DNA from: Caldimicrobium sp.
Lineage (GTDB): Bacteria > Desulfobacterota > Thermodesulfobacteria > Thermodesulfobacteriales > Thermodesulfobacteriaceae
Assembly: GCA_025060015.1 (NCBI GenBank)
Contig: JANXDB010000067.1
Span: forward strand, 1 to 49,715
Reading direction: 5' to 3'
Length of the DNA stretch: 49,715 nt
The translations under genes were made by a program, and so were the position numbers. The notes below the pieces were generated by a model, which saw nothing but the letters and a program-made list of their open reading frames with translations, did not search any database and was not told where the DNA came from. Numbering within the stretch: the stretch's first letter is position 1; every line of letters begins with the position of its first letter. Shown piece by piece: positions 34,273 through 43,291 of this stretch.

Positions 34273-35064
34273 CTACACATAGATTATCTCCCCAGAATTT
34301 ACCTCAATTAAACCTTCATCAGTTGAGATTATCAAGCCCCCCCTAGAGGATATACCACATGCCATACCAACCACTCCCTCCTCTTCATCTAAATTGTAAC
34401 CATAGAAAACACATCGGTGCAATGAGTCTGAAAAATTTAAAAAGTCTTCCACTATTTTATTGGGATTATCTTTCTCTTCTTCTAAAATTCTCTTTTCATA
34501 GAGCCATAGTTCATGATAATAATGATTTAAAGAGGGTAATAGAAGTTCAAGAACTCTTAATGGGGATATTTCTTGACCAAGGAGGGTTTTCAAATTAACA
34601 GCAGGTAGTCCTGGGGGGAGAGTGTTATTGACATTAAGTCCGATTCCCACTAAATACCACTCATGCCATTTCTCTATCAATACCCCTGCTAATTTCCTAC
34701 CACGATGATGTAGATCGTTTATCCACTTTACATAAATTTCCTCCAGTTGAAGCTCTCGCACGGCCTTTCCTAAAGCCACACCGAAGAGAAGACTGAAAAG
34801 ACCTGTTAATTCAGTTAAAAACTCTTCGTACAGGGAAATGGTTAACCAAAGACCACCTTTATTTGCAATCCAAGTCCTGTTAAAACGTCCCTTGGCTTTG
34901 GTGATTTCATCAGTTATTATTATTCTTCCATGGGCGCCTCTGGGATAGGCGTTTATAAGCTCTTTGGCCTTTTGAAAGCCGCTCTCTAAAATAGAAAAAT
35001 GCCAGATCTCCCCACCTATTACCGTGGGGATCCTTTGAGAAGAGTTTTCCTTTAAGCTGGCCAC
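34273..35064 (-). CDS. birA: Biotin-protein ligase (BirA catalytic type)
   Basis: 263-aa enzyme that attaches biotin to carrier lysines through biotinyl-AMP. It lacks the DNA-binding domain of E. coli BirA. The core has TKAKGRFNRTWIANKGGLWL (a variant of the GRGRxGRxW loop) and VKWINDLHHRGRKLAGVLIE (KWPND variant), then LVGIGLNVNNTLP and a C-terminal SH3-like domain ending GLIEVNSGEIIYV. GTG start at 35064, overlapping the preceding gene by 13 nt. Its place next to the carrier-like and carboxylase genes suggests it is tuned to that carrier. Confidence 0.9.
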   Translation of the reverse strand: MASLKENSSQRIPTVIGGEIWHFSILESGFQKAKELINAYPRGAHGRIIITDEITKAKGRFNRTWIANKGGLWLTISLYEEFLTELTGLFSLLFGVALGKAVRELQLEEIYVKWINDLHHRGRKLAGVLIEKWHEWYLVGIGLNVNNTLPPGLPAVNLKTLLGQEISPLRVLELLLPSLNHYYHELWLYEKRILEEEKDNPNKIVEDFLNFSDSLHRCVFYGYNLDEEEGVVGMACGISSRGGLIISTDEGLIEVNSGEIIYV

Positions 35065-35711
35065 TCTTCCTTAATTCTCTGGATGATTCTCTCCAAATAG
35101 GGAAGGTCTTCTACTGGACACAATCCTATGAGAGGAGCATTACTGGGGACAATTTCAAAAGGCTTGAAATAAAGACGGTATATCACGAAGGTTCCCCTCT
35201 CCCTTAGATGAATCGGGGTTTCTCTTTTCATAAAGGTCATAGTCAAAAGCTCGCTTCCCTGCTTTACAGTTACCTTTCCCAAACCCTCTTTCTCAATCTG
35301 CTTTGCAAGTTCAGGATTGATGATATATCTTGCTGTTTCAGGAGCTTTTATTACGAAGAGGGTGGAAAGTAAGATTTCAGAGATTATCTCCTCTTGAGTA
35401 AGGGCATGTTTTATTTCAAGCACCGTTTCAAAGGCTTCAACAAATTTGTTTAGAAACTCAAAGCGGATATTTTGAACTACTCCGTTGTAGTTGGAACTGA
35501 TAATCTTGGGATTTTTTTCCCTCTCTAAGACGAATAAAGGAGATCCAGGTTTTTCAAGCCACTTACCCCTTGGTCCAGTAACCTCCATACCCTCTTTAAC
35601 CTTAAATTCTATGATCTTGCCTGTGTGAGGTGTTTTAACGGGGTATATTTTGTATGGATTAGCTTTTAATTTTTGAATCATTTGAGTTAGTTGCTGAAAA
35701 TCAATCTTCAT
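35052..35711 (-). CDS. Divergent biotin/lipoyl-carrier-like protein of the acetyl-CoA carboxylase locus
   Basis: 219-aa protein. Residues about 20-100 align without gaps to the biotinyl domain: VKTPHTGKIIEFKVKEGMEV, then PLFVLEREKNPKIISSNYNG, then VVQNIRFEFLNKFVEAFETV. In place of the normal E-A-M-K-M it reads E-R-E-K-N, keeping a lysine (Lys66) at the attachment point. The C-terminal half (about 105-219) is unrecognised and has no clear motif. It lies between the fused carboxyltransferase (5-nt gap) and birA (overlap). It is either a biotin carrier with an altered acceptor site or a former one. Identification is by my own alignment by eye. Confidence 0.6.
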   Translation of the reverse strand: MKIDFQQLTQMIQKLKANPYKIYPVKTPHTGKIIEFKVKEGMEVTGPRGKWLEKPGSPLFVLEREKNPKIISSNYNGVVQNIRFEFLNKFVEAFETVLEIKHALTQEEIISEILLSTLFVIKAPETARYIINPELAKQIEKEGLGKVTVKQGSELLTMTFMKRETPIHLRERGTFVIYRLYFKPFEIVPSNAPLIGLCPVEDLPYLERIIQRIKEEWPA

Positions 35712-35716
35712 GGGTT

Positions 35717-37933
35717 TTACCTATAGTAGAGGTTTGGGCCTCCCATAGTTAATAGGGCAAAGAACAGTTTTTTTCTCAATTCTCTTCTGTCCCAGATGCC
35801 CTGTATATGCCCTCTTTTGAGTGCATTTTCTACGCTGTGATAATCTGGAGGTACTGGTTGTCCTGTGGTCTCTAAGATAACCCTTGGTCCAGCAAAACCA
35901 AGTCTAGTGGATTTTAGAGCAAATTGATAGGGAGCTGATCCCAAGAAACTTGCAACTGGTCCTGCATAGGAATTGTTATCGTAGACTACAAGGTAGAGGC
36001 CCCCGCTATCTACATAATCTCTTACAGCCATGGTGCATCTTGGCATCTGCACCACCCCAAGAGTGCCTTCGTGAATTCTTATCCCACCGGTGGTGTGAAC
36101 TAAACTTAAAAAGGGCCTTCTTGTGAGTTTAGCAAGCTCTATGGCTCTGATGAACTTCTCGCCCTCAGCTACCCCCACTGTGCCCTGCCTGAAGTCGGCA
36201 ACAAGCATAATTGCTACTATGGAAATTCCACCGATCTTTGCCTCAAAGGAGAGAAGTGAGGAGTTCAAACCAGTCTCTTTACGTGCGGCTTTCAGTTTCT
36301 CGGCATAGCCTTCAAAGTTAAGGGGATTGCTTGAGCTAAGCTCTTCATTGAAAAACTTAACACTGTCCCTGTCAAAGATGTTGTTCAAGTACCAGTTATA
36401 TTCCAGTGGAAAATGATACCCACAGGTAGGACAAACACCGCAGAACTCTCCATAGAGATCAGGGACCCAAAGGTCTGGACATCCGTATTTTTCTGCCTGT
36501 GGACAGGTGACTGTTCTGTCCTGAAGGGCAAGGGGGCTCTGATACATAGAACTATCAACGTCTATCTCTGCTAAAGCCCTAACCTTAGGCCTGATCTTCT
36601 TTCCCACTATTAGGTTGTAAACACTCTTGACAGGATCAGAAACTGGTTTCATAAGCACTGTGGACTCACTGAGCAACTCATCTAAGAACTTTTTAAAGGT
36701 CTTTTGTCCCTTCTTTAAAACTTGATATTTGAATTCATAGGCAAGACTTTGAGTTATTTTAGCACCTCTTTCGGTGAGAGATTTAAATATGCCCTTGGAT
36801 TCTAAAACCGCCCACTGACTCATTTTGCGATATTTCTCCCATCTATTTTCCATGAGGATCTCCTTTTCGTCCTCGGAGAGTTCCCAGTTGACAAAATATT
36901 TGAAGGATTCGGTGTTTTGTTTTGAAAGGGCGTAACGCCTAAGAAGTTTGATGCTTCGTGTCTGTAAGACTATCTGATCTGTGGCTTTTATGAGCTCAAA
37001 TTTGAGTCTTTTGAAGAATTCGTAGTCCTTTCTTCTGGCTCCAAGTGGTGGCTCAGGGACTACTCTGTCAATAGTCCCAAGTTTAAGATTATCCTGGGCT
37101 GTGAGCTTTAGGGCCACAGCCATTTTTTCAACCAACTCTCTTGGAGGCCTTTCGTCACGAAGCTTAGCCTCAATCGCTGCTCCACCCTCAGGGCTTATGA
37201 CAGAGTAATAACCTTTCTCACTCATCAGTCTGAAATCTGTGAGTCCAATAGCCTCTGCTCCACCTGAACCTCCCTCGGATATGAAAGATACCGTAGGTAC
37301 TTCAAGCTTGCTGAGGTAATATAGATTTCTCGCGATCTGTTGAGCTGCTCCGGGATAATCCTCTATGGGATATGCTCCAGGGGTAAAGATGAAAAAGTGA
37401 ATAGGAATACCCTCAGTTTCAGCCATCTTCATGTATCTCAAGGCCTTTTCATTGCCCCAAGGGGTGGCACTACCACCTCTTCTATATTCCTCTCCCTGTC
37501 CCTTTTCATGGCCAATTACCATAACTTGATGGAAGTAAACTTCATTGCCTACCCTTCTGCTTATCAGGGCCTTAGCACACACGATGGCAGGATCAATGTT
37601 GAGTTCTCCCTCCCCACCAAGTTCCACATAGTTATCATAGACATTTTCCAAAATATCCATCAAAGTGAATCTCTTAGGATGCCTCACGATCTTAACTATT
37701 TCATAGGGAGTGAGTGTTTCCTCTGCTTTGAGCAGGATCTGATCTACAGTCTCCTTGGTTTTTTCGTAAAAGGCCTTGATCTCTGATGGAGAAAAATCAT
37801 AAAAATTAGCGCAGATTTCGTTTATTTTATTCACATATTCCTTGATGTTAAGAAAATCCTCACCTTTGATATCTTTTATATACTCTGCCGTGTCCAAGAG
37901 ATCTCTCAGGGCTTTATGAAGCTCTATCTGCAT
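35717..37933 (-). CDS. Fused acetyl-CoA carboxylase carboxyltransferase (AccA-AccD order)
   Basis: 738-aa fusion. The N-terminal part (about 60-310) is AccA-like: HPKRFTLMDILENVYDNYVE, VMVIGHEKGQ, FTPGAYPIEDYPGAAQQIA and SEGGSGGAEAIGLTDF. A helical linker (about 310-460) follows. The C-terminal part (about 465-738) is AccD-like with a zinc-finger set (CPQAEKYGC and CGVCPTCGYHF), VAEGEKFIRAIELAK and GAPYQFALK-like segments. The AccA-first order is the reverse of the common AccDA fusion; similar proteins occur in sulfate reducers. It transfers CO2 from carboxybiotin to an acyl-CoA, most likely acetyl-CoA for fatty acids. Lies 12 nt after accC. Confidence 0.88.
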   Translation of the reverse strand: MQIELHKALRDLLDTAEYIKDIKGEDFLNIKEYVNKINEICANFYDFSPSEIKAFYEKTKETVDQILLKAEETLTPYEIVKIVRHPKRFTLMDILENVYDNYVELGGEGELNIDPAIVCAKALISRRVGNEVYFHQVMVIGHEKGQGEEYRRGGSATPWGNEKALRYMKMAETEGIPIHFFIFTPGAYPIEDYPGAAQQIARNLYYLSKLEVPTVSFISEGGSGGAEAIGLTDFRLMSEKGYYSVISPEGGAAIEAKLRDERPPRELVEKMAVALKLTAQDNLKLGTIDRVVPEPPLGARRKDYEFFKRLKFELIKATDQIVLQTRSIKLLRRYALSKQNTESFKYFVNWELSEDEKEILMENRWEKYRKMSQWAVLESKGIFKSLTERGAKITQSLAYEFKYQVLKKGQKTFKKFLDELLSESTVLMKPVSDPVKSVYNLIVGKKIRPKVRALAEIDVDSSMYQSPLALQDRTVTCPQAEKYGCPDLWVPDLYGEFCGVCPTCGYHFPLEYNWYLNNIFDRDSVKFFNEELSSSNPLNFEGYAEKLKAARKETGLNSSLLSFEAKIGGISIVAIMLVADFRQGTVGVAEGEKFIRAIELAKLTRRPFLSLVHTTGGIRIHEGTLGVVQMPRCTMAVRDYVDSGGLYLVVYDNNSYAGPVASFLGSAPYQFALKSTRLGFAGPRVILETTGQPVPPDYHSVENALKRGHIQGIWDRRELRKKLFFALLTMGGPNLYYR

Positions 37934-37945
37934 AGTCTGTCCACT

Positions 37946-39331
37946 TTAAATAAATTGGTATATGAAGTTTAGATTTTCTCGCAGAAACTCTATGTTTGTA
38001 AGGAGTGTTTCACCCTTTGGGGTTTGTCCTTCAATTTTTATATCATCAAGAAAGATTTTACTCTTCTGAAGTAGATCCTCCAGATTCTCTGCATAAATTA
38101 TGGCTAAGGCAAGATTAGGGTCAAACTGGGTAGGGATGGTGTAAGGGGTATCCTGAGGGACATGAGTTCTCATGGTAAGCCAAGGCTGGGGAGTGTATTG
38201 AAATCTGTTTATGGTACCACTAAGGGGAACAAAGCCCCTCCTAGTGTCCTCAGCTATAAGGCGAAATTCTAAACTCATACCTCTAAAGTTGATATCACTT
38301 TGAGTATATCCAAGGTTATCTCCCATGGCCACTCGTATCTGTTCTCTAATAAGATTTACTGGTTTGTCCTTTATGAAGGATATCTTAGCCGAGATTTCGT
38401 TTTCCACCTGTATTCTTGTGTTAACTTCCATGAGGTAATACTTACCCTCTGGGGTGATAAGCCACTCAAAGGTTCCCACGCTATCATAGTTAAAGTGTTT
38501 AGCAAGCTTAAGTGAATACTCTATAATCTCTCTCTCGATCTTCTCTGGATCAAAGGCGTATCTATACTTAGAACAGAAACCAGGTGCAAGTTCAATTCTC
38601 TTCTGTTTAAAGGGGCTTTGGATGGTGCAGTTTCTTGTTCCAAAATGGACATATTCCCCTTTTTTACTGCCTAAAATCTGGACCTCTAAGTGTTGGAATC
38701 TGGGAATTTTTACTTCAATTATCACTCCCTCTTCACCAAAGAGTCTTTTAGCATAGGCTCTGATCTTTCTAAAGACAGGTCTAATTTCCTCTAAAGTTTT
38801 AACCTCTTCAATTCCCATTCCACCGCCACCTGCTACCGCCTTGATAAGAAAGGAAATCTCTTTGAAGCCCTGAGCCTCTGCCTCTTCCAAAAGATCCTCT
38901 GCCTTGAACTCAGCGTCGATTTCGTTGTAAAGAGGCTCAATTGTTCCTGGAATAACGGGTATACCCAATTCATGAGCAACCCTTTTCATATAGAGTTTGT
39001 TTCCAAGATCTCTAATGGCCTCCCAGGAGGGTCCAATCCAGATCAGAGGTCTCTCTCTTTTGACCACTCTTCGTGCAAAACGATAGTTCTCTGAGAGAAA
39101 GCCATATCCAGGGTGAATGGCGGTACAGTTTTCTTCATCTGCCACGGCAAGGATATCGTTCATATCCCTGTAATCTGAGATGCGATACTTTTTTTTAGCC
39201 AAGCGCACATGCAAAGACTCCTCGTCTTCCTTAGTGTAAAGGGCTACATAGTCCAACTTTAACTGGTCGCAGGCTTCTATAATACGAAGAGCAATCTCTC
39301 CTCTGTTTGCGATGAGGACCTTGTCTTTCAT
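37946..39331 (-). CDS. accC: Biotin carboxylase, divergent type
   Basis: 461-aa ATP-grasp enzyme that carboxylates biotin. Recognisable parts are KVLIANRGEIALRIIEACDQ, IHPGYGFLSENYRFARRV, FLIKAVAGGGGMGIEEVKTL and the active site GTFEWLITPEGKYYLMEVNTRIQVE. Several E. coli AccC positions differ: the QRRHQK block reads QSPFKQKRIELAP and VEHPVTE reads VENEISA. The core Glu/Asn/Arg residues of EVNTRIQ remain. It belongs with the fused carboxyltransferase and carrier-like gene; together they form an SRB-style ACC. Confidence 0.9.
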   Translation of the reverse strand: MKDKVLIANRGEIALRIIEACDQLKLDYVALYTKEDEESLHVRLAKKKYRISDYRDMNDILAVADEENCTAIHPGYGFLSENYRFARRVVKRERPLIWIGPSWEAIRDLGNKLYMKRVAHELGIPVIPGTIEPLYNEIDAEFKAEDLLEEAEAQGFKEISFLIKAVAGGGGMGIEEVKTLEEIRPVFRKIRAYAKRLFGEEGVIIEVKIPRFQHLEVQILGSKKGEYVHFGTRNCTIQSPFKQKRIELAPGFCSKYRYAFDPEKIEREIIEYSLKLAKHFNYDSVGTFEWLITPEGKYYLMEVNTRIQVENEISAKISFIKDKPVNLIREQIRVAMGDNLGYTQSDINFRGMSLEFRLIAEDTRRGFVPLSGTINRFQYTPQPWLTMRTHVPQDTPYTIPTQFDPNLALAIIYAENLEDLLQKSKIFLDDIKIEGQTPKGETLLTNIEFLRENLNFIYQFI

Positions 39332-39348
39332 TTCATTTTGACCATAAG

Positions 39349-40671
<1,323 letters not shown>

Positions 40672-40717
40672 TTACTATATTTTACTGAAAATAAAAGATT
40701 TTCATCCCACTTCTTAC

Positions 40718-42505
40718 CTACTTATCCCAGCCAGGCAGAAGATGGAGCTCTAAGATCTGTTCGATGTTTACCGCACTGGGTGCCCCGGTGAGCAAACACT
40801 GCCCTCTTTGGGTCTTAGGAAAGGCGATTACTTCACGGATACTTTTTTTTCCTAGCATCAACATAATGAGTCTATCAAGCCCAAAGGCCAGTCCTCCATG
40901 TGGAGGAGCCCCGAATTCCAGTGCCTGAAGTAAGAAGCCGAACTTCTCCTCTGCTTCCTCCTTGGAGATACCTAGTATCTGGAAGATCTTTTCCTGGAGA
41001 TCCCTTCTGTGAATACGGATACTACCTCCTCCAATCTCAATTCCATTGAGGACGATATCGTAGGCTCTGGATCTGACTTTTAGAGGCTCAGTATCCAAAA
41101 GATCTAGATCTTCAAGCTTAGGGTGAGTAAAGGGGTGGTGCATAGAAACGAGTCTATTTTCTGTATCATCCCATTCAAATAGAGGAAAATCAACGATCCA
41201 GGTGAATTGGAAGGTTTTTTCTGGAATCAATGAGAGTTTCTGAGCCAAGTTAAGTCTGAGCTCTCCTAAGATGTGACGGGTGACTTTGGCTTCATCTGCT
41301 ACGAAAAACAGGGTTGCTCTTTCCTCGCTTAGGTCAAAGACCTCCTCAAATTTCGTGAGTATAGAGGGCTCAAAAAATTTTACAATAGGTGAAACCCATT
41401 TTTCTTCAAGTTGTGAGGCTTCCTTATTGTACTTAATCCAGGCAAGACCTTTAGCACCCAAGTTCTGAGCAAGTTGGGTAAGCTCCTCTATTTCTTTACG
41501 TGAAAAGTGAGCAGGCGCCTTGATTCCGTTAACTATTCCTCCCCTTTCAAGGGCTGAACGAAAGACCTGAAAATTAGAAACCCTTGCCAGCTCTGATACA
41601 TCCCTCAACTCTAAGGAAAATCTAAGGTCTGGCCTATCAGTTCCATATCGAGAGATGGCCTGTTCAAAACTCAAACGAGGAAAAGGTGTACTTATGGTTA
41701 TCCCCAGGTTTTGTTCAAAGAGGAAACTTAGTAGATTTTCTACCAACTGTTGAATATCTTCCTCTTTGATAAAGCTCATCTCTAAGTCAAGCTGGGTAAA
41801 TTCAGGTTGCCTGTCTGCCCTTAGGTCTTCATCTCTGAAACAACGCACTATCTGAAAATATCTTTCAAAACCTGCAATCATAAGGATTTGTTTGAAAAGC
41901 TGGGGAGATTGAGGGAGGGCATAGAATTTTCCAGGATATAGTCTACTGGGCACTAAATAATCCCTTGCTCCCTCTGGAGTGCTTTTAGTTAGATAGGGTG
42001 TTTCGATCTCCACGAACCCCTGCCTATCGAGAAATTCCCTTATGCTCTGATTAATCTTGTGTCTAAAGATAAGTGGTTTGTGACCATTCAAAGCACGCAT
42101 CTCTAAATAGCGATACCTAAGCCGTGTGGCTTCTGAGACTTCAGAAAGGTCTTCATCCATGGGGAATGGCGGGGTTATTGAGGTATTGTGTATCTCTAAA
42201 TCCTTTCCTACCAGTTCTACTTCTCCAGTTGGAATCTTGGGATTTTCCATACCTGGTGGCCTTCTTCTAATAACTCCTCTTATACTTACAGCAAATTCGT
42301 TTCTTAAGGAATCTGCTAACCTGTGAATTTGAGGATCAATCCCTTCCTCAAAGACCACCTGTAAAATTCCACTGCGATCTCTGAGATCAAGAAAGATTAC
42401 TCCTCCATGATCTCTTCTCCTGAGAATCCATCCACAGACGGTAACTTCCTCTCCAACCATATCTGTGTGGATCTCCTCTATAAAGTGGGTCCTTTTTAGA
42501 TTCAT
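40718..42505 (-). CDS. aspS: Aspartyl-tRNA synthetase, bacterial type
   Basis: 595-aa class II synthetase. N-terminal OB-fold ([20 protein letters not shown]) binds the anticodon. The catalytic core has [40 protein letters not shown] (motif 2) and [15 protein letters not shown] (motif 3). The bacterial GAD insertion is present at about 290-420. GGAGG sits just before a GTG (42508) and the ATG at 42505; the ATG has the better spacing. It follows tatD with no gap. The archaeal-type non-discriminating form is excluded by the GAD domain. Confidence 0.97.
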
Positions 42506-42508
42506 CAC

Positions 42509-43291
42509 TTAACCTCCGTAGTCATTGAATTTGAAAAATTTTATGGCATTGGCAGTAGTTTGCTCGGCCACTTCCTCCAAGGAAAGGGCCTTTAGCTCTG
42601 CTAAACACTTAGCGGTATGTATCAAAAAGGCAGGCTCATTTCTCTTCCCCCTCATGGGTACCGGTGAGAGGTAAGGGCAGTCTGTCTCAAGAACAATCCT
42701 ATCAAGAGGAATATATTTTGCGGCCTCTCTTAAGCCAAGGGCTTTATCAAAGGTGATCACGCCTGGTAAAGATATAAGGGAGTTAAAATCGAGAAGTTTT
42801 TGTGCTACTTTTTTTTCCGAGGTAAAGCAGTGAAAGAGGAGTGGTAGATCATGAAAATTTTTTAAAAGATCAATGGCTAAATCCCAAAAGGCAGAATCTC
42901 CTCTTAAATGGAGGATTACCGGTTTATCGTACCTCTCAGCAAGAAAGAGTAGATTTTCAAGATGAAGGATTTGCAGGTCCTTTGGAGAGTACTCCTTAAC
43001 AAAGTCGAGGCCAACTTCTCCTAAGGCTAAAGCCAAAGGTAGATTCTCTTCGATCCATCGATAGTCTTCGTCAGTCAGTTTTTTGACATCATGTGGATGA
43101 AAGCCGAGGGCAACATCAATGAGGTCAGGATACTCCCTTTTTATCTCCAAAGCCTTTAAACCGGTCTTCCTATCAATACCAACAACTAAGATTTTGATTA
43201 TTCCCGCATTTTTTGCCCTTTCAATGACCTGGGGAAGATCTTTTTTAAACTCCGGAAGGTTTAGGTGCGCGTGGGTGTCAACTAGTCTCAT
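42509..43291 (-). CDS. TatD-family metal-dependent hydrolase/DNase
   Basis: 260-aa TIM-barrel hydrolase with the metal ligands in DTHAHLNLPEF, the Glu of ALGEVGLDF, HLRGDSAF and HCFTSE, and the Asp of LETDCPYLSPVPMRGKRNEP. This is the TatD DNase/quality-control family; substrate here is unproven, and it is unrelated to Tat export. The start forms an ATGA overlap with the upstream permease gene, and aspS begins right after the stop. Confidence 0.93.
   Translation of the reverse strand: MRLVDTHAHLNLPEFKKDLPQVIERAKNAGIIKILVVGIDRKTGLKALEIKREYPDLIDVALGFHPHDVKKLTDEDYRWIEENLPLALALGEVGLDFVKEYSPKDLQILHLENLLFLAERYDKPVILHLRGDSAFWDLAIDLLKNFHDLPLLFHCFTSEKKVAQKLLDFNSLISLPGVITFDKALGLREAAKYIPLDRIVLETDCPYLSPVPMRGKRNEPAFLIHTAKCLAELKALSLEEVAEQTTANAIKFFKFNDYGG

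Follow-up and report, generated by a model that had tools for sequence, protein, structure and literature searches.

Gene content and layout of the locus

The stretch of DNA analyzed here, 49,715 nucleotides from Caldimicrobium sp. (contig JANXDB010000067.1), is referred to as the window, and the genome to which it belongs as the window genome. It contains a cluster of four open reading frames (ORFs), all on the minus strand, in the order biotin carboxylase (BC), carboxyltransferase (CT), biotin carrier, and biotin protein ligase (BPL) in the direction of transcription (Table 1). The BC and CT genes are separated by 12 bp and the CT and carrier genes by 5 bp, and the carrier and BPL genes overlap by 13 bp. 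A preliminary description of this DNA had already delimited and named the four genes; the ORFs were confirmed, and the names were supported by Pfam and NCBIfam matches. The nearest named relatives of the locus were found in Caldimicrobium and other Thermodesulfobacteriaceae.

Table 1. Features of the four-gene cluster, with positions in the window
Feature	Position	Strand	Basis or remark
Biotin carboxylase (AccC-like, 461 aa)	37946-39331	-	Catalytic residues intact
Fused carboxyltransferase, AccA part ahead of AccD part (738 aa)	35717-37933	-	PF03255, TIGR00515
AccA-like half of the fusion, approx. residues 30-335	36929-37846	-	PF03255 and TIGR00513
AccD-like half with four-Cys cluster, approx. 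residues 477-738	35720-36505	-	TIGR00515
Biotin carrier, two barrel-sandwich domains and C-terminal helix (219 aa)	35052-35711	-	AlphaFold2 model; family in 23/148 genomes
Carrier N-terminal degenerate biotinyl-type domain, approx. residues 20-104, R-E-[RK]-N hairpin	35400-35654	-	PF00364, AccB profile alignment
Lys66 codon, acceptor proposed in the preliminary description	35514-35516	-	Residue variable among relatives
Carrier C-terminal biotinyl-type domain, approx. residues 118-200, probable carrier domain	35112-35360	-	AlphaFold2, Foldseek, PF00364 in homologue
Lys162 codon, predicted biotin attachment site, M-K-R	35226-35228	-	Invariant Lys; hairpin tip
Second biotin protein ligase (263 aa), loop KAKGRFNR, site KWIND	34273-35064	-	TIGR00121

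Directly upstream of the cluster, purA, aspS, and a TatD-like gene occupy positions 39349-43291 on the same strand, and the cluster may therefore belong to a longer transcript. The distance from purA to the carboxylase gene is 17 bp, and the adjacency of purA to the cluster is retained across Thermodesulfobacteriaceae. A 148-aa ORF antisense to the carboxyltransferase gene (37340-37786, plus strand) is probably spurious.

Biotin carboxylase and carboxyltransferase

The equivalog scores of the window proteins for accA, accC, and accD were far under the respective cut-offs; for the BC, TIGR00514 gave 319 bits against a cut-off of 626. The best solved relative of the BC was the small subunit of 2-oxoglutarate carboxylase. 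The BC had been described as divergent close to the active site, and this was borne out for the blocks QSPFKQK and VEN, which depart from standard BCs. The catalytic residues are nonetheless kept, and K116, K164, H214, Q243-K244, E289, E302, N304-R306, E310, and R357 were invariant in 16 relatives.

In the CT, PF03255 (ACCA) matched residues 30-327 and TIGR00515 (AccD) residues 499-724 of one chain. The catalytic motifs of the CT, as well as the cysteines C477, C485, C501, and C504 of the AccD half, were invariant in 61 relatives. The fused protein was the sole CT match in the window genome. In one other genome (G040), a second pair of fused CT and BC was observed (L192:838-3084 and 32-817) besides the carrier-adjacent pair.

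Domain structure of the carrier

Residues 25-84 of the carrier matched the Biotin_lipoyl family (PF00364; 27.2 bits, cut-off 22.1). In a profile alignment, LEREKNP fell on the biotinyl site EAMKL of AccB, with Lys66 on the biotinyl lysine, as the preliminary description had aligned it. No match of the AccB equivalog TIGR00531 to the carrier was obtained up to E=1, and a PDB sequence search with the carrier gave nothing significant.

In the AlphaFold2 model of the carrier (mean pLDDT 92.3, alignment of 51 relatives), a helix (5-17) precedes the first barrel (strands 20-103); a linker helix leads to the second barrel (strands 119-199), and a final helix (200-216) follows. Lys162 was placed at the tip of the hairpin between strands 154-160 and 163-168, which is the position of the biotinyl-lysine. 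When the C-terminal half was folded alone, its best PDB match in Foldseek was the BCCP of Pyrococcus horikoshi, with a target-normalised TM of 0.73-0.83; E. coli BCCP was matched as well, with a TM of about 0.7. The probability of these matches was 1.00, and the E-values were modest (about 2e-4). In the profile alignment, M-K-R of the carrier fell on M-K-L of AccB. The C-terminal half of the window carrier itself had no Pfam match, and that of a homologue (L082) exceeded the Biotin_lipoyl cut-off (26.7 vs 22.1 bits). An unbiased genome search with the carrier-family profile also matched two large biotin-enzyme frames, solely via positions 132-193; the match in G107 was to a 660-aa frame that was also picked up with the Biotin_lipoyl family. 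The C-terminal domain, previously called unknown, was thus recognized as a second biotinyl-type barrel by AlphaFold, Foldseek, profile alignment, and Pfam in a homologue.

Judged from sequence and model together, the carrier consists of two biotinyl domains, of which the N-terminal one is degenerate and the C-terminal one looks active, with M-K-R and not M-K-M. The two halves resembled each other weakly in an internal profile comparison (probability 6), and a recent duplication is therefore not claimed.

Conservation of the candidate acceptor lysines

Relatives of the carrier were collected by searching 148 genomes of the phylum with the whole protein and without use of the motif, and 23 were obtained. 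Lys66 had been put forward as a surviving acceptor under a new E-K-N rule, with its invariance among homologues as a check. It was not conserved: residue 66 was K in 6, R in 13, and G in 4 of the 23 relatives, and the E-K-N rule therefore fails. A further 80 loci were used for position 66 only; since MKR was part of the pattern by which they had been selected, the invariance of that motif in these loci was not counted as evidence. Together with the window protein, they had R at position 66 in 51 cases, K in 19, N in 5, G in 5, and Q in 1.

Lys162 was the sole invariant lysine (23/23 relatives), within the motif M-[TS]-x-M-K-R-[DE] (consensus M-S-x-M-K-R-D; LTMTFMKRETPI in the window carrier). 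Invariance extended to M161, so that a methionine precedes the hairpin-tip lysine as in biotinyl domains, and to the following residue, which was R163 in all 23 and not the second Met of canonical MKM. The biotin acceptor is very probably Lys162 in the C-terminal half, as indicated by this conservation and by the modelled hairpin. At the hairpin of the N-terminal domain, R64 and N67 were invariant, and the surface of this dead hairpin is therefore probably selected for something other than biotin. The N-terminal barrel, with its biotin site lost, probably serves a docking or structural role.

Distribution across genomes

The carrier and the fused CT co-occurred in exactly the same 23 of the 148 genomes, and the carrier-family profile search gave no further full-length case. 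No separate AccA or AccD was found in these 23 variant genomes. AccB over the cut-off was found in 0/23 of them vs 29/125 of the others, and four variant genomes were without an AccB-like match of any kind. Family and protein searches underlie these genome-wide absence calls. The completeness of the window genome is 99%. A normal AccB elsewhere in it, which the preliminary description had named as evidence that would count against the locus, was searched for and not found, and the locus is left standing on this point.

The only other biotin-type carrier of the window genome was an SMKM domain in a PycB/OadA-like protein on contig C59, the gene of which adjoins a more typical biotin carboxylase. 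Further PF00364 matches were limited to this domain and a membrane-fusion-like protein. FabD is present in the window genome, and malonyl-CoA is therefore needed. Two small Biotin_lipoyl proteins were observed in the variant genome G145 (158- and 172-aa frames, L193 and L194), and they could serve other carboxylases.

Second biotin protein ligase

The window BPL has the catalytic (PF03099) and C-terminal (PF02237) domains and scored 91.5 bits for TIGR00121, over the cut-off. Residues G27-R28, R31, and K92, which include the Arg of the ATP/biotin loop and the KxAG Lys, were invariant in BPLs of this type. The window genome encodes two BPLs and two biotin carriers. The other BPL, encoded on contig C45, is extended at the N terminus by a part resembling a DNA-binding domain and has GRGRMNR and KWPND; the window BPL is without the extension and without the canonical motifs GRGRxGR and KWPND, having KAKGRFNR and KWIND.

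BPLs of the window type were monophyletic (support 100/100), and a profile of the clade gave 230-295 bits for its members in the 148 genomes, with the next match at 143. Members were present in 18/23 variant genomes, usually beside the carrier, and in 0/125 others (Fisher p 5e-19, to be taken as indicative in view of the relatedness of the genomes and of the use of clade members to build the profile). In many Desulfobulbales-type loci, the carrier and ligase genes are adjacent with BC and CT elsewhere in the genome (the arrangement seen at L090:7848-9647 and similar loci), and a functional link between carrier and ligase is thereby suggested. Such a link is not obligatory, since G029 and four f40 genomes have the M-K-R carrier with a canonical BPL only, and the ordinary BPL must suffice there. 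Of the co-inherited set of carrier, ligase, and carboxylase proposed earlier, the exact co-occurrence of carrier and CT and the separate BPL clade were thus supported; strict pairing or co-evolution of carrier and ligase was not upheld in view of these five genomes.

Most likely, the adjacent second BPL biotinylates the M-K-R carrier and the canonical BPL serves the M-K-M carrier. Alternatively, the canonical BirA would biotinylate both carriers, and the adjacent ligase would be redundant or have another role. The five variant genomes with a canonical BPL alone point this way, and so do the single BPL that serves all carriers in most organisms (PMC3199775) and the BCCP of Chloroflexus aurantiacus, which is accepted by the BirA of both E. 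coli and C. aurantiacus (PMC11077971). This alternative is nevertheless considered unlikely, because the second ligase is confined to variant genomes, usually stands beside the carrier even where BC and CT are elsewhere, and has retained its catalytic residues. Full separation can be suggested only tentatively, and is rather doubtful: the second clade (xKGRFxR, [KR]W[IV]ND) would recognize M-K-R only and the ordinary BPL M-K-M only, giving two insulated channels, and the N-terminal barrel would have been repurposed to dock the fused CT.

The lysine of KWPND was replaced by Arg (RW[IV]ND) in the ligases of Thermosulfurimonas and of Desulfobulbales-type loci (L075, L077, L090, L116, L134, and others). 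Loss of the catalytic lysine in these ligases was considered and rejected, as the adenylation lysine of BPL is located in KxAGxLVE (PMC2384007) and is kept. In G129, a BPL of the second clade was found inside an 874-aa frame (L191:1351-1995), possibly a fusion, away from the carrier.

Proposed function and alternatives

The locus can be read with good confidence as a divergent acetyl-CoA carboxylase (ACC) that replaces the standard AccABCD in the window genome and in part of the phylum, with biotin on Lys162. The organism is thermophilic, and many of its sulfur-metabolizing relatives appear to begin fatty-acid synthesis with this type of enzyme as well. Acetyl-CoA is the presumed substrate, as suggested by the presence of FabD and by the fact that no other AccA or AccD was found. 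By homology and conservation, the window ligase (or BirA) would attach biotin to Lys162, the BC would load CO2 onto the carrier biotin, and the C-terminal barrel would swing to the fused CT, which would convert acetyl-CoA to malonyl-CoA for fatty acids. The N-terminal barrel would probably dock or orient the carrier.

Carboxylation of another acyl-CoA or of a 2-oxo acid is improbable. It would fit the BC score under the AccC equivalog cut-off and the 2-oxoglutarate carboxylase subunit as the nearest solved structure of the BC, but the CT is of the AccA/AccD type, the variant genomes have no other AccA or AccD in the searches made, the window genome has FabD, and the more typical BC stands beside the PycB/OadA-like gene on C59. 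Still less probable is a carrier that acts as a non-biotinylated structural or regulatory subunit, with an unrecognized small BCCP doing the work. The atypical M-K-R, in which the second methionine is missing, and the two small Biotin_lipoyl proteins of G145 would agree with such an arrangement; the invariance of Lys162, the nature of the other PF00364 matches in the window genome, and the four variant genomes devoid of AccB-like matches speak against it. Biotin on Lys66, attached by a co-evolved ligase and with the C-terminal half as an extra domain of unknown kind, agrees with the alignment to AccB and with the Pfam match of the N-terminal half alone, but is refuted as a family rule and scarcely credible for the window carrier, since relatives with R or G at this position have otherwise the same CT, BC, and usually ligase, and the sole invariant lysine sits in the C-terminal barrel.

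Comparison with known systems

The same four activities as in the E. coli-type AccA/AccB/AccC/AccD enzyme are predicted for the locus, with homologous BC and CT halves and a separate carrier. The locus differs in the fusion of AccA and AccD with AccA first, in the two barrels and the M-K-R site of the carrier, and in the second BPL, which is usually beside the carrier. The ACC of C. aurantiacus is likewise a lineage-specific rearrangement of heteromeric ACC parts, in which a single BCCP with E-x-M-K-M is joined to BC and the CT subunits are not fused (PMC11077971), whereas in the window the fusion concerns the CT, and the carrier is a free protein with two domains. P. horikoshi BCCP (2d5d, 5gu8, 2ejf) shares the fold of the C-terminal half and the lysine at the hairpin tip, but has one biotinyl domain and is 27-30% identical to that half (Foldseek).

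Non-canonical residues flank the biotin lysine, as in the carrier, in Sulfolobus tokodaii (AMKS) and Aquifex aeolicus (ALKV), both as cited in PMC3048393. E. coli BirA does not biotinylate the S. tokodaii site, and strictness of a BPL for its own carrier is already known (PMC3048393). Neither M-K-R nor a degenerate second domain is described in that paper. One BPL per genome was reported as the rule, with rare exceptions (PMC3199775), and the genomes with two BPLs depart from this pattern.

Non-canonical biotin sites, a carrier-strict BPL (PMC3048393), and rearranged ACCs (PMC11077971) are thus known; no description of the double carrier, the AccA-first fusion, or the BPL clade was found in the open-access literature. 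The committed precursor of fatty acids is the product of ACC, and the locus broadens the known architectures of this enzyme by combining apparent dead and live biotinyl domains in one carrier, a reordered CT fusion, and, in most genomes with the carrier, a BPL lineage of its own. The M-K-R carrier and its ligase suggest themselves as a candidate pair of tag and ligase for orthogonal biotinylation.
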